The notes under the pieces were generated by a model. The model searched no databases. It was not told the DNA's origin and saw nothing but the letters and a program-made list of their open reading frames with translations. Positions 4,130 to 49,537 of a DNA stretch of 55,773 bases are shown piece by piece. This DNA is from a virus. The position numbers and the translations under genes are program-made. Each line of letters starts with the position of its first letter. The stretch's first letter is position 1. The stretch spans positions 1 to 55,773 of IMG/VR virus record IMGVR_UViG_3300020152_000027. The stretch is one strand, 5' to 3'.

Positions 4130-4175
4130 ATTTTATCCTTGACAGCCCCGCTAGAATCTTCTAGAATCCTCTAGA
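4130..4175. promoter_or_regulatory. Divergent promoter region with triple CTAGA operator
   Basis: Rightward: TTGACA (4139-4144), a 17-bp spacer and TAGAAT (4162-4167). Boxes GCTAGA (4150), TCTAGA (4160) and TCTAGA (4170) are 10 bp apart and cover the spacer and the -10. Leftward: a TAAAAT (4135-4130) could serve the gene at 4109. The operator is the mirror copy of that at 1885-1910; the 19-bp core TCTAGAATCCTCTAGACAG is shared. Confidence 0.8.
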
Positions 4176-8902: not shown

Positions 8903-9928
8903 ATGAGCAAGATCATTCCTAACAGCTTCCAGACCCCGAACGCCTACATAGACGAGTTTATGGCGTTCCTCACGCCTGAAGAGAATGTAGTACTGACCTA
9001 CACGGCGCGGCGCATCTTCGGCTTTCATAAGGATGAGGATCGTATCAGCCTGTCACAGTACGCGGAGGGCATCAAGGCGCACGACGGCTCTATTTTGGAC
9101 TACGGGACAGGGTTAAATAAGAAAGCCGTCCGGCGCGCTCTGGATGCCCTGATCGCCTTCGGACTCATTATCGAAGTCGAGCCTTACGTTATAGAGACAA
9201 GCACCCCGGCCTGCTACGCGCTCCAACTCGACCCCGAAAAGATAGACTCCAGCGGTCTCCACGCGCGCCGTGCTGCTCGCGTGGCGATGGACTCACGACG
9301 GACGGCCAAAGGTAGAAACGTCGCCACACTTAACCGCGCCGAACGGTCAGACCCTAGTGTGTCCGATAACACACCCCCTGTTCTATCCCATACAACAGCC
9401 CCCCCTGTGTTATCGGACACTACACCCCCTGTTCTATCGGATAGCATACCCCCTGTTGTATCCGACACCACTACAAAAGCCAGAGAGAAACAAAGTAGAA
9501 AACCAGAAGAACCTTTAGGCGAGTCGGCTCACGCCTCCCCGCAAAGCCCCTCGCCAAAATCGAGGACTTCAAAGTCTCCACCCGACCCCCGTTCTCAACA
9601 CCCTGCAATCCAACTCGTCAAGAAATTGATGAGCCGTTACCCAGACAAGATTTGGTACGACGACATCATCGAGATCGTCGGAGAAGAACCAGACGTTGGA
9701 AAACTGACAGCCTGTCGCAAGGATTGGATCGGTAGGGGTTGGAACTCAAATTCGCTCGATTGGATACCGTGGTACAGAGACGGCATCCCCGAAAGGAACG
9801 GCAATGGAAAACAGAGCAACGGCAGCGGATCACATGGAAAATCTGGCGAGTCATCGGAAGTTTCTGACGCTACTCGAAAAGTGTCTGGACGCTTCCAACC
9901 TACCGAAACAGTCGGAAGTTCCCTATGA
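8903..9928 (+). CDS. Lambda O-like replication initiator
   Basis: 341 aa. Residues about 10-110 form a winged-helix domain (TPEENVVLTYTARRIFGFHK, KAVRRALDALIAFGLIIEVE), as in phage O/DnaD-type initiators. Residues about 150-190 are a low-complexity linker of PPVLSDTT-like repeats, and the DNA coding for it is a set of iterons (9359-9470). The C-terminal part (about 240-300, QLVKKLMSRYPDKIWYDDII) would recruit the helicase loader encoded next door. The last 125 bases overlap the DnaC-like gene. Order, size and internal iterons match lambda O. The domain call is from pattern. Confidence 0.75.
   Translation: MSKIIPNSFQTPNAYIDEFMAFLTPEENVVLTYTARRIFGFHKDEDRISLSQYAEGIKAHDGSILDYGTGLNKKAVRRALDALIAFGLIIEVEPYVIETSTPACYALQLDPEKIDSSGLHARRAARVAMDSRRTAKGRNVATLNRAERSDPSVSDNTPPVLSHTTAPPVLSDTTPPVLSDSIPPVVSDTTTKAREKQSRKPEEPLGESAHASPQSPSPKSRTSKSPPDPRSQHPAIQLVKKLMSRYPDKIWYDDIIEIVGEEPDVGKLTACRKDWIGRGWNSNSLDWIPWYRDGIPERNGNGKQSNGSGSHGKSGESSEVSDATRKVSGRFQPTETVGSSL
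9359..9470 (+). repeat. Iterons inside the O-like gene, candidate replication origin
   Basis: Four copies of a CCCCCTGTNNTATC unit begin at 9374, 9401, 9425 and 9449 (spacing 27, 24, 24 bp). A perfect 15-bp inverted repeat, GTGTCCGATAACACA (9359-9373) and its complement (9406-9420), overlaps the first two. They encode the repeated linker of the initiator. Lambda ori has the same layout: iterons in the O gene bound by O. Confidence 0.75.
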
Positions 9929-10658
9929 CTGCGACGACTGCTCGGATATGGGCGTCGTGTTCGGGAAGCATGAAGTGGACGGCAGACAGTACACCCATGC
10001 CAAGCCCTGCGTCTGCCGTCGGCGCAAGGCCGTCGAGTATTTGATGGAGACCATTGACCAGAGATTCAAACGGTTCGCGCCTCCCCGGCTGGCCGACCTC
10101 TCTCCCCGATATGACTGCTTCCGCGATGACCCGGCAGGCTCGAAATGGGTAGGCGACGCACAGGCTGAAGCGATTGCCTTGATGTGCGCGAATCCCTTCA
10201 GTTCTTTCGTGTTCGGGGGAGACAACGACACCGGGAAAACTCACATGGCCTATTCGCTGCTGGTCAATGCGTGTGAGACGGGGCGCACCTGCGTCCATAT
10301 CAAGCTGAGAGACCTTTTGGACGAGTGGGGCAAGGAAGCCAGAGGGGAGGCGGGGAAGGACGGTAAGGCGTTCCGTTCTACCGTTAGGGCAAGCGACCTC
10401 GCGCGAGGTCAATGGTCAATCCTGCTCGACGAGTTCGACAAGACGGGCGTGACGGAGTTCAGGAGCGCGGAACTCTATAACTTCCTTGATGAAATCTGGC
10501 GCAAAGGCCATCAACTGATCGTGACGGTCAACTTGCGTAAAGATCGGGTGATCGAGAAGTGGTCTCGGATTGATGAGACCTACGGAGCGTCCATCGCCAA
10601 AAGGCTGTACTCGGAAGCTAGAGGCGTCGGCCTGTTCGTTGACGAGATTAAGAAATGA
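9804..10658 (+). CDS. DnaC-like replicative helicase loader (lambda P role)
   Basis: 284 aa. A cysteine cluster (residues 43, 46, 69, 71) suggests a zinc site in the N-terminal helicase-binding part. An AAA+ core follows: Walker A GGDNDTGKT (about 138-146), Walker B ILLDE (about 206-210) and a sensor-like TVNLRK. Loaders of this type place the host DnaB helicase on the origin melted by the initiator. The ATG at 9804 has AAGGA six bases upstream and overlaps the O-like gene by 125 bases, so the pair is tightly co-expressed. The Walker A carries Asn-Asp where many loaders have Gly/Pro, a minor variation. Confidence 0.85.
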   Translation: MENRATAADHMENLASHRKFLTLLEKCLDASNLPKQSEVPYDCDDCSDMGVVFGKHEVDGRQYTHAKPCVCRRRKAVEYLMETIDQRFKRFAPPRLADLSPRYDCFRDDPAGSKWVGDAQAEAIALMCANPFSSFVFGGDNDTGKTHMAYSLLVNACETGRTCVHIKLRDLLDEWGKEARGEAGKDGKAFRSTVRASDLARGQWSILLDEFDKTGVTEFRSAELYNFLDEIWRKGHQLIVTVNLRKDRVIEKWSRIDETYGASIAKRLYSEARGVGLFVDEIKK

Positions 10659-47455: not shown

Positions 47456-47638
47456 ATGATACTGACCGTGCAAGAGGTAGCAAACCGTTTGGGCGTGACG
47501 CGAGAGCGCGTCTATAAGCTCATCACCGATAAGCGGCTGCCAGCTACAAAGTTCGGGCGCGACTGGCAGATACAAGAGAAGCATTTAAAACTCGTCCAAA
47601 ATCGTAGAGTCGGCAGACCCCGTAAAGAGGCCGCATAA
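47456..47638 (+). CDS. Excisionase/MerR-like HTH protein
   Basis: 60 aa. TVQEVANRLGVTRERVYKLI followed by DKRLPATKFGRDWQIQEKHL is the complete DNA-binding (HTH_17/Xis-like) domain, with a basic tail (RRVGRPRKEA). Proteins like this regulate or recombine mobile elements; here no recombinase is present, so control of the ParA cassette through the inverted operator just upstream is more likely. Probably leaderless. ParA starts two bases after it. Confidence 0.8.
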   Translation: MILTVQEVANRLGVTRERVYKLITDKRLPATKFGRDWQIQEKHLKLVQNRRVGRPRKEAA

Positions 47639-47639
47639 C

Positions 47640-48440
47640 ATGAAGACTATCGCCATCGCAAATCAGAAGGGCGGCGTAGGTAAAACGACTACCGCTGTTA
47701 ATCTTGCCGCTGCCCTACAGTCGCAAGGCCGGAGGGTGCTGGTGCTCGACCTAGACCCGCAGGCAACCGCCACCCGCTTCCTGCTCGACCGCTACGGGGC
47801 TGACGGGGAGACGATGTATGAAGTCCTCTTGAACAGTAAACCTCTCTCCGAAGTCATCCAGAAATCCCCCGCCGGTATCCCCATCGCGCCCAGCAACTTC
47901 AATCTGGCGTCGCTCGACCTCGACCTGAACAACGCCCTGAACCGCGAGCACCGCCTGACCGCCGCGCTGGAAGAGATTCCCGGCTACGACTACACGCTGA
48001 TTGACTGCCCGACGTTCTTAGGCTTCGCCAACATCAACGCCTTTGCCGCATCCCAAAGCGTGCTGATACCGATTGAATGCGCGCCGGAATCATGGGAAGC
48101 AGTTCCCTACTTGATGCAGACCTTACGCAAGATCATCACGCAGCTTAAACACCCGTTGAAGGTGTTCGCGCTGCCGACGTTCTTAGAGCGCACTAACATC
48201 GCCAGAGACATCCACGAAGAAATCAAAGAGCATTTTGAGGCGTACACCCTCAGTCCGATCAACAAGAACGTGAAACTGAAAGAGGCTTTCAACGCGAGAA
48301 AGCCGATCACTCAATACGACCCGGCGGCGTCGGGTGCTATGGACTACCTGAGAGCGGCTAAGGAGATCATTAGTGAACACGAAACCGAAAAGGAAATACG
48401 GCGAAGTAAAGAAGGGCGCGGAAACGACGCTCGGAACTAA
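47640..48440 (+). CDS. parA: ParA-type partition ATPase
   Basis: 266 aa. Deviant Walker A KGGVGKTT (10-17), Walker A-prime DLDPQ (about 37-41) and Walker B LIDCPTF are those of ParA/Soj-type ATPases, which place plasmid copies in dividing cells by moving on the nucleoid. There is no N-terminal HTH extension, so it resembles type Ib/chromosomal-style ParA; the separate HTH gene upstream may supply DNA binding. No ParB homologue is recognised; the winged-helix protein encoded next, overlapping by 68 bases, is the candidate partner. This gene is the main argument for plasmid maintenance. Confidence 0.9.
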   Translation: MKTIAIANQKGGVGKTTTAVNLAAALQSQGRRVLVLDLDPQATATRFLLDRYGADGETMYEVLLNSKPLSEVIQKSPAGIPIAPSNFNLASLDLDLNNALNREHRLTAALEEIPGYDYTLIDCPTFLGFANINAFAASQSVLIPIECAPESWEAVPYLMQTLRKIITQLKHPLKVFALPTFLERTNIARDIHEEIKEHFEAYTLSPINKNVKLKEAFNARKPITQYDPAASGAMDYLRAAKEIISEHETEKEIRRSKEGRGNDARN

Positions 48441-49446
48441 TCAGTCGGTATTCGATAAGTTCCTGCCCTCCACAGATACGACCGTACCTAGCACCCCTCC
48501 TAGCCCCCGTCCTAGTACCCCTGCTAGGCAGCCTAGCCCCCGCGACGTAGCTCCGAACCGCGACTTTCAGAAGGTGGCGAACTCAATCACGCGAGATGCC
48601 ATCCCTTCGGGGATGTTCAACGGCAAGGCCAAGCAGTTGTATGACTGCCTCTACAGCCTGACGAGAGGCGCGATAGTTCCCTCCATGACCGTCCGTATCA
48701 GCCGCGCCGCCTTGATGAAGAAATCAGGCATCGGCGCAAAGGTCACGCTCGAACAGAATCTAAGACGCCTCGCGCTCTCCGGCCTCGTCTCCATTAAAAC
48801 CATCGGAGGCGTACAGGGCGGCAACGAGTACACAGTGAGATTGCCGGAAGAAGCCATACCTAGTACCCCTCCTAGTACGGGTACTAGCCTACCTAGCCCT
48901 CCTAGCAGTGGCGAGAATGTAGGAGTCCTAGCCCCCCTAGAAAGTAGCCCTCCTAGCCACGGTTTAAGTGCTGATTATCAAACAACTTCTGACGATCCCA
49001 AGACTCTTATTAAAGACAGAGAAAGAATTGATGATGAGGCTGCGCCGCTTCGAACGAAAGCCTTCGAAAAGTTCGAAGTTTTCACAAACGCAATAGAATC
49101 ACTAGATGTAGTTGTCAAAGAGCTAACAGGCAAGGGAATCAGTAAATCAGACGCTTCGAAGTGGTCTGAATTGTTCGAACTTCTCGCCACGGAACTCAAG
49201 ATCGCCGCTGCTCGCACAACCGTTTCCAGCGTGCCCGCATTTCTCACGGAACACTTGCGTAGAAGGCTCTTTAAACGCTCGGCAGACGAGATGCGAGTAG
49301 AGAGCAGGGAAGCGGTAAATTCGCCCGCTGCACAGCCCGTAGACGCAAGCAAATGCCTCGACTGTGGAAATACCGGCTGGTGGTATCCTGAAGGGCCGGA
49401 GAAGGGTGTGGCCCGCTGCGCGCACGCAAGGTTAGGGGCCGAATAA
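48373..49446 (+). CDS. Winged-helix replication or partition protein with repeat linkers
   Basis: 357 aa from a GTG with AAGGAG upstream, inside the end of parA. Residues about 39-56 and 163-195 are Pro/Ser/Thr repeats (PSTPPSPRPSTPAR type) coded by CCTAG-rich DNA. Between them (about 62-160) is a winged-helix domain (NRDFQKVANSITRDAIPSGM, LMKKSGIGAKVTLEQNLRRL, GGNEYTVRLPEE). The C-terminus has a zinc-site-like CLDCGNTGWWYPEG...CAH. I recall similar proteins beside ParA in acidobacterial mobile elements, often with varied repeat linkers, but cannot verify this here. It is the likely initiator or centromere-binding protein of the plasmid state. Confidence 0.65.
   Translation: MNTKPKRKYGEVKKGAETTLGTNQSVFDKFLPSTDTTVPSTPPSPRPSTPARQPSPRDVAPNRDFQKVANSITRDAIPSGMFNGKAKQLYDCLYSLTRGAIVPSMTVRISRAALMKKSGIGAKVTLEQNLRRLALSGLVSIKTIGGVQGGNEYTVRLPEEAIPSTPPSTGTSLPSPPSSGENVGVLAPLESSPPSHGLSADYQTTSDDPKTLIKDRERIDDEAAPLRTKAFEKFEVFTNAIESLDVVVKELTGKGISKSDASKWSELFELLATELKIAAARTTVSSVPAFLTEHLRRRLFKRSADEMRVESREAVNSPAAQPVDASKCLDCGNTGWWYPEGPEKGVARCAHARLGAE
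48487..48536 (+). repeat. CCTAG iterons, cluster 1
   Basis: CCTAG at 48487, 48499, 48511 and 48532 and GCTAG at 48523; the first four lie exactly 12 bp apart. They encode the first PSTP-type linker. CTAG is normally one of the rarest four-base words in bacterial DNA. Confidence 0.7.
48859..48956 (+). repeat. CCTAG iterons, cluster 2
   Basis: CCTAG (once ACTAG) at 48859, 48871, 48883, 48892, 48901, 48927, 48936 and 48952, spaced mostly by 9 or 12 bp. They code for the second linker of the same protein. Density of CTAG here far exceeds that of the surrounding gene. Confidence 0.7.
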
Positions 49447-49451
49447 CGTGC

Positions 49452-49537
49452 GGTCCCGAAACCCCCTGTTTTAGCCGCTGGACCAAGTATAAATGTTGAA
49501 AGTGTGTGATTTAACATTGGTCCCAAGTATTAGGACC
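49452..49537 (+). repeat. Repeats after the winged-helix gene, possible origin or centromere
   Basis: GGTCC/GGACC occurs four times (49452, 49480, 49519, 49533). CCAAGTAT occurs at 49483 and 49523, and TTTTAGCC twice around the same stretch. The pair at 49519 and 49533 forms a small hairpin. The region 49447-49660 carries no gene that I can support and is AT-richer than its neighbours in part. Confidence 0.45.

Follow-up and report, generated by a model that had tools for sequence, protein, structure and literature searches.

A candidate plasmid-type replication origin inside an initiator-type gene next to parA of a phage, with repeat words that change along with the winged helix

That a replication origin can reside within the gene of its own initiator is an established principle, known from lambda O, pSK41 Rep, pPR9 and RepC. 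In lambda O, iterons and an AT-rich region lie mid-gene, in the stretch that encodes a linker (PMC7466680). The Rep boxes of pSK41 are located centrally in rep, and in the chimeric pPR9 the N-domain and the origin have been replaced as a block, the result being compatible with pSK41 (PMC5703833). RepC of the repABC plasmids is encoded together with ParA and has oriV inside its own gene, where an AT-rich region is needed (PMC3155836). Extrachromosomal mycobacterial prophages possess a ParABS module, and some of them also have RepA for replication in the plasmid state, with the origin possibly located within repA (PMC7157519).

Here we analyse a 55,773-bp stretch of DNA that comprises a virus record (hereinafter, the window), so that the rest of the genome is the phage itself. 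The gene that follows parA in the window (Table 1) contains two arrays of CTAG words, and we put at roughly two in three the probability that it is a plasmid-type replication initiator that carries iterons and an unwinding element within the gene encoding it and shares an operon with ParA (or, in other members of its family, with an AAA+ protein). Such a protein would resemble lambda O in being an initiator of the winged-helix class with iterons and an AT-rich region in its own gene, the sites in the window being candidates identified by sequence; however, lambda O has one mid-gene array, whereas in the present family arrays of short words (5-7 bp) flank the winged helix and ParA or an AAA+ protein is the upstream partner. 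With the pSK41-type RepA_N proteins and pPR9, the family shares in-gene sites, putative ones here, and block replacement, and RepA_N is the closest structural match of the modelled domain; but the winged helix of RepA_N lies at the very N-terminus and is only followed by the boxes, whereas here the arrays are on both sides and the replacement extends across dozens of members. Like RepC, the protein is encoded with ParA and is proposed to have the origin in its own gene, but RepC has no iterons and is accompanied by a separate ParB (RepB), in contrast to the arrays and the operon without ParB found here. Finally, the mycobacterial prophages have a separate parB and parS, whereas in the window one gene, with the arrays inside, may cover both roles. 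In the literature searched, which consisted of open-licence texts only, we found no description of this family, of two-sided arrays, of cassette exchange on this scale or of the alternation of ParA and AAA proteins, and no close precedent for centromeres inside parB genes.

Table 1. Features of the initiator/parA locus and of the O-like gene in the window
Feature	Position	Strand	Evidence or remark
O-like initiator gene; linker repeats ~9370-9466, AT-rich stretch from 9473 on	8903..9928	+	PHROG 678, 2e-11
Small helix-turn-helix gene (HTH_17) upstream of parA	47459..47638	+	Pfam PF12728, 1.2e-11; comparable gene ahead of parA at several homologous loci
parA, Walker-type ATPase, overlaps next gene	47640..48440	+	Pfam AAA_31, 2.8e-45; PHROG 164, ParA-like
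Initiator-type gene, 357 aa, holds both arrays	48373..49446	+	Translation; family of ~65 members
Block 1, five CTAG, candidate iteron array in linker 1	48487..48540	+	Other words at the same place in homologues
Part coding for the winged-helix domain, residues ~61-160	48553..48852	+	AlphaFold2; best structural matches are RepA initiator N-domains
Block 2, eight CTAG, candidate iteron array in linker 2	48859..48957	+	Two in another codon phase; in homologues whose words are asymmetric, forward copies precede reverse ones
AT-rich segment, candidate unwinding element	48978..49040	+	62% AT vs 45%
Helical domain, residues 224-315, candidate replisome contact	49042..49317	+	AlphaFold2; conserved across the family
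C-terminal CxxC...CxH motif, zinc-binding-like	49354..49425	+	Also found where the winged helix is dissimilar

The tetranucleotide CTAG is depleted in the window as a whole, with 90 occurrences against 145 expected from dinucleotide shuffles, and outside the two blocks it is found about 1.4 times per kb, so that the density within the blocks, some 60-fold that of the rest of the window, does not reflect a word that is equally common elsewhere. The 13 copies that the initial annotation had reported in two clusters of the gene after parA are indeed there, five at 48488-48536 and eight at 48860-48956, mostly as CCTAG (11 copies, along with one GCTAG and one ACTAG), and the spacing of 9 or 12 bp that it had described applies to most of the steps (12, 12, 12 and 9 in block 1; 12, 12, 9, 9, 26, 9 and 16 in block 2). 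The further claim that this density goes beyond the needs of coding stands in part. Under the codon usage of the phage, the gene would be expected to contain 2.3 +/- 1.5 CTAG (at most 10 in 5000 simulations) compared to the actual 14, counting the copy at 49102, and the 8 copies of CCTAGC exceed the number in every one of 200 synonymous permutations; when the synonymous codons of the gene itself are permuted, 7.3 +/- 2.0 CTAG are obtained, with a maximum of 15, so that for CTAG alone this stricter null is not quite excluded. Two of the CTAG in block 2, at 48928 and 48937, differ in codon phase from the other 11 copies in the blocks, which implies that selection acts on the DNA. Both blocks fall in predicted disordered linkers that flank a winged helix confidently modelled by AlphaFold2, in agreement with the arrangement originally proposed.

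The protein encoded in the window shows no significant match to families in Pfam, PHROG, NCBIfam or PDB, and a sequence search against solved structures likewise yielded nothing significant. The model of the winged helix is most similar to the RepA initiator N-domains 4pql and 4pt7 (Z of 10.6 and 10.4 over 88-92 residues) and to 5kbj (9.4), within a common fold for which unrelated winged-helix regulators reach a Z of 9.8 over 65-68 residues in the same comparison. The RepA_N profile (PF06970) does not match the protein at E-values up to 1, and hence we do not classify it as a RepA_N member; the similarity to O-like profiles is weak (0.18 to phrog_18020). Replication-initiation PHROGs, O-like ones among them, are matched by family members whose winged helices differ: L094, L130 and L138 match phrog_678 at 1e-7 to 4e-6, and the match of L094 to PF04492 (1.8e-5) falls short of the curated cut-off. 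A reading as a defence system was also considered and dropped, PADLOC giving no match for the window protein.

The full-length protein retrieved no relatives from phage or plasmid records, nor did a word scan of viral contigs, and three further family members used as queries found nothing in plasmids or phages. Relatives were recovered with the winged helix alone, with ParA and then with alignments, which led to viral loci and loci of Acidobacteriota/Pyrinomonadaceae; in all, there are ~65 homologues, mostly from Acidobacteriota genomes and phages. Members are present in 19 of the 162 genomes of the class that includes G001, and this single genome bin contains up to ~19 family matches with ~15 different words, although strain mixing is possible given that these genomes are metagenome bins. 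ParA is encoded directly upstream at ~38 loci, with no ParB within the operon, whereas ~23 members have an AAA_22 ATPase in its place. Considered as a known helicase loader, the AAA protein has a Pfam match to AAA_22 and a PHROG match of the MuB-like transposition type only. The N-terminus of the initiator-type protein varies with the type of the upstream ATPase, which suggests that this segment might contact the ATPase of the operon. A MuB/TniB-like AAA_22 ATPase together with a different N-terminus is seen in L061, L068, L094-L096, L102, L103, L111, L112, L117, L125, L141-L144 and others. A weak ParB-HTH match was found in a gene near L064, L097, L100, L101, L109 and L110, which could be a separate partner of ParA at these loci. 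In two pairs, L092/L104 and L105/L134, members in two genomes have common chromosome-like neighbours, which we take to be an AMP-ligase-like gene and a presumably RNase D-like gene, and accordingly some members may occupy stable chromosomal or chromid sites.

Nearly every member contains a short word that is repeated in both linkers, and this word varies from gene to gene, examples besides the CTAG types being GTAC in L002 and L068, CTACC in L005, CACCAC in L059 and L105, CAACCCA in L063, ACTCAAC in L092, CCCTGTC or CCCCTGT in L089 and L109, CGGTA in L138, GGAACA in L139 and CTTAC in L143. For 46 of 69 genes, the most frequent 6-mer is more abundant than in synonymous permutations at a level of 1% or less; a clear word is absent from L065 (by the permutation test), L098, L100 and L132. 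Thus, homologues that lack CTAG do not simply have linkers devoid of repeats but carry another word instead, and the comparison for covarying repeats that had been suggested at the outset gave a positive answer across ~60 homologues, whose words differ but occupy the same pair of linkers and track the winged helix. Across 43 genes, similarity of the linker words correlates with the identity of the winged helix (r=0.58) and of the recognition helix (r=0.60; Mantel P=2e-4), and the correlation persists when the similarity of the ATPase is controlled for (partial r=0.505, P=5e-4), with the ATPase retaining a weaker partial link to the word (r=0.22). The word is common to all 31 pairs above 70% identity and to almost none of those below 60%. 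The motif G[AS][RKM][VAIT]T[FLIV][DE] in the recognition helix, GAKVTLE in the window, is accompanied by at least 5 CTAG in the linkers in 13 of the 13 genes that have it versus 1 of 30 others; the Fisher P of 4e-10 should not be taken at face value, the genes being related and the motif picked after looking.

Individual pairs show the same dissociation from the ATPase. The ParA proteins of L128 and L002 are 92% identical, and those of L109 and L064 91%, with a word similarity of 0 in both cases; conversely, L140 and L105 (ParA 21%, winged helix 78%) have a word similarity of 0.96 and L109 and L104 (28% and 84%) one of 0.89, and L068 of the AAA type has both its winged helix and GTAC in common with L002 of the ParA type. 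In the nearest phages, L003 and L004, the N-terminus and ParA are kept, and the winged helix and the words are replaced wholesale. Among relatives, the winged helix and its putative sites are swapped together, as one cassette. The phage in the window and three others (G163, G164 and G165) have ParA proteins that are 85-89% identical and almost no other proteins in common, each with its own, differing replication genes and a different address cassette, and the ParA common to such otherwise unlike phages points to recent exchange of a maintenance module.

The layout of the arrays is equally regular. Where the word is asymmetric, the copies in block 1 are overwhelmingly forward (95 to 10); the forward copies of block 2 precede the reverse ones in all 18 genes that have both orientations. 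An AT-rich stretch directly follows block 2 in 46 of the 46 genes with the next domain, the AT excess being +14%, +24% and +7% in three consecutive 30-bp bins, and its DNA is conserved (e.g. CTAAGACTTCTTTTAAGACT...GATGATGA): the same residue is encoded by the same codon in 74% of the pairs against 38% expected, compared to 34% against 32% in the winged helix. In L003 and L004, as in the O-like gene of the window, the repeats are likewise followed by an AT peak. Minima of the cumulative GC skew fall inside the gene in two contigs, G001:C29 and G069:C62, and 28 loci taken together show a step in the skew (P=0.001, mean rank 0.30), the skew being confounded by gene direction; the window itself showed no such step. 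DnaA boxes near the family genes are at 0.10 versus 0.035 per kb, but with merely 8 versus 9 matches they were set aside. Directly downstream of the initiator-type gene, an imperfect inverted repeat, GGACCAAGTATAAAT / ATTTAACATTGGTCC, is located at 49480-49523.

How else could these arrays be explained? The least probable alternative holds that the words are a by-product of Pro/Ser/Thr linkers expanding by slippage. Every array does encode a disordered linker rich in Pro, Ser, Thr, Gln or Gly, and codon permutation within the gene alone already gives 7.3 CTAG; nevertheless, this is highly implausible given that the words are not confined to one reading phase, are inverted at fixed places in other members, show conservation at synonymous sites and track a winged-helix domain that they do not encode. 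It is also very improbable that the arrays serve only as operators for repression of their own operon. Autoregulation is common among partition and initiator proteins, and the sites are within a transcribed operon, but the arrays lie inside the second gene and not at a promoter, and their presence on both sides of the domain in a fixed inverted layout, together with a conserved AT-rich segment, is not what simple operators would suggest.

A weightier alternative, albeit one we deem unlikely, is that the protein is solely the ParB-like partner of ParA, with the arrays in its gene serving as parS, such that the module would segregate a prophage plasmid but start no replication. At the gene level, the layout is that of a type I partition locus, with the ParA ATPase gene sharing an operon with the gene of a DNA-binding protein; the position of ParA immediately upstream at so many loci in operons without ParB, the near-identical ParA in four otherwise unlike phages with their own replication genes and different cassettes, and the lack of a detected integrase or serine recombinase in the window all fit. 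A pure centromere, however, leaves unexplained the members with an AAA_22 ATPase instead of ParA, and an AT-rich segment with synonymous conservation beside the array is a feature of origins; the matches of some members to replication initiators and the steps in GC skew also speak against it. The initial annotation had offered iterons or a centromere bound by the same protein, and the covariation of word and winged helix supports this joint claim, binding being inferred from sequence. Between the two, the weight of evidence, namely the AT-rich segment, the skew minima and step, the structural matches to RepA N-domains and the members that match replication-initiation PHROGs, favours an origin, with a dual role possible. 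Against an initiator, an operon that has ParA but no ParB would fit partition, and the phage already has an O-like replicon. Quite tentatively, one embedded array may be both origin and centromere, with the C-terminus starting replication and the N-terminus recruiting ParA for ParB-free segregation; the cassette would then be an exchangeable address unit that is diversified in hosts with many plasmids and phages to escape incompatibility.

Under the preferred reading, that of an initiator with an embedded origin, the winged helix would bind CCTAG iterons that lie in the coding sequence of the disordered linkers on its two sides, the strands would open at the AT-rich segment just past block 2, and the C-terminal part would recruit replication proteins, with the N-terminus probably contacting the ATPase of the same operon, ParA here and the AAA+ protein elsewhere. 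As the domain and the sites form one contiguous cassette, recombination would exchange both together and could create a new incompatibility group. If correct, this would provide a natural set of protein-DNA specificity pairs in which the target sites are carried in the gene of the protein itself, and a recognition code of this winged helix readable from sequence alone; a single recombination event might suffice for a new plasmid or phage incompatibility group, each replicon having its own address. Little is known of the plasmids and phages of Acidobacteriota, to which this would be relevant, and such soil bacteria could thereby gain origins as well as compatible vectors.

Through the initiator/ParA module the prophage would be maintained in plasmid form, apart from the O/DnaC-type replicon of the lytic phase. 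The window encodes terminase, portal and tape measure proteins along with ParA, that is, virion genes beside a plasmid maintenance gene, and no match to PF00589 (integrase) or PF00239 (serine recombinase) was found in the window, although the record may be incomplete and a tyrosine recombinase is encoded by the related phage G165; this combination is the one by which phage-plasmids are recognised. The O-like gene has linker repeats of the CCCCCTGTT.TATC.GATA type and is followed by a DnaC-like loader gene (8903-10658 together), and by sequence this replicon at 8.9-10.7 kb is lambda-like and predicted to be lytic. The design common to two initiators of one genome, as initially surmised, is thus real, the O-like gene having both linker repeats and an AT-rich stretch, but it is a design already known from lambda O. 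Elsewhere in the window, three TCTAGA-like words at exact 10-bp steps are present at 1885-1910 and again at 4150-4175, upstream of outward-facing small genes, and these triplets look like candidate repressor operators.
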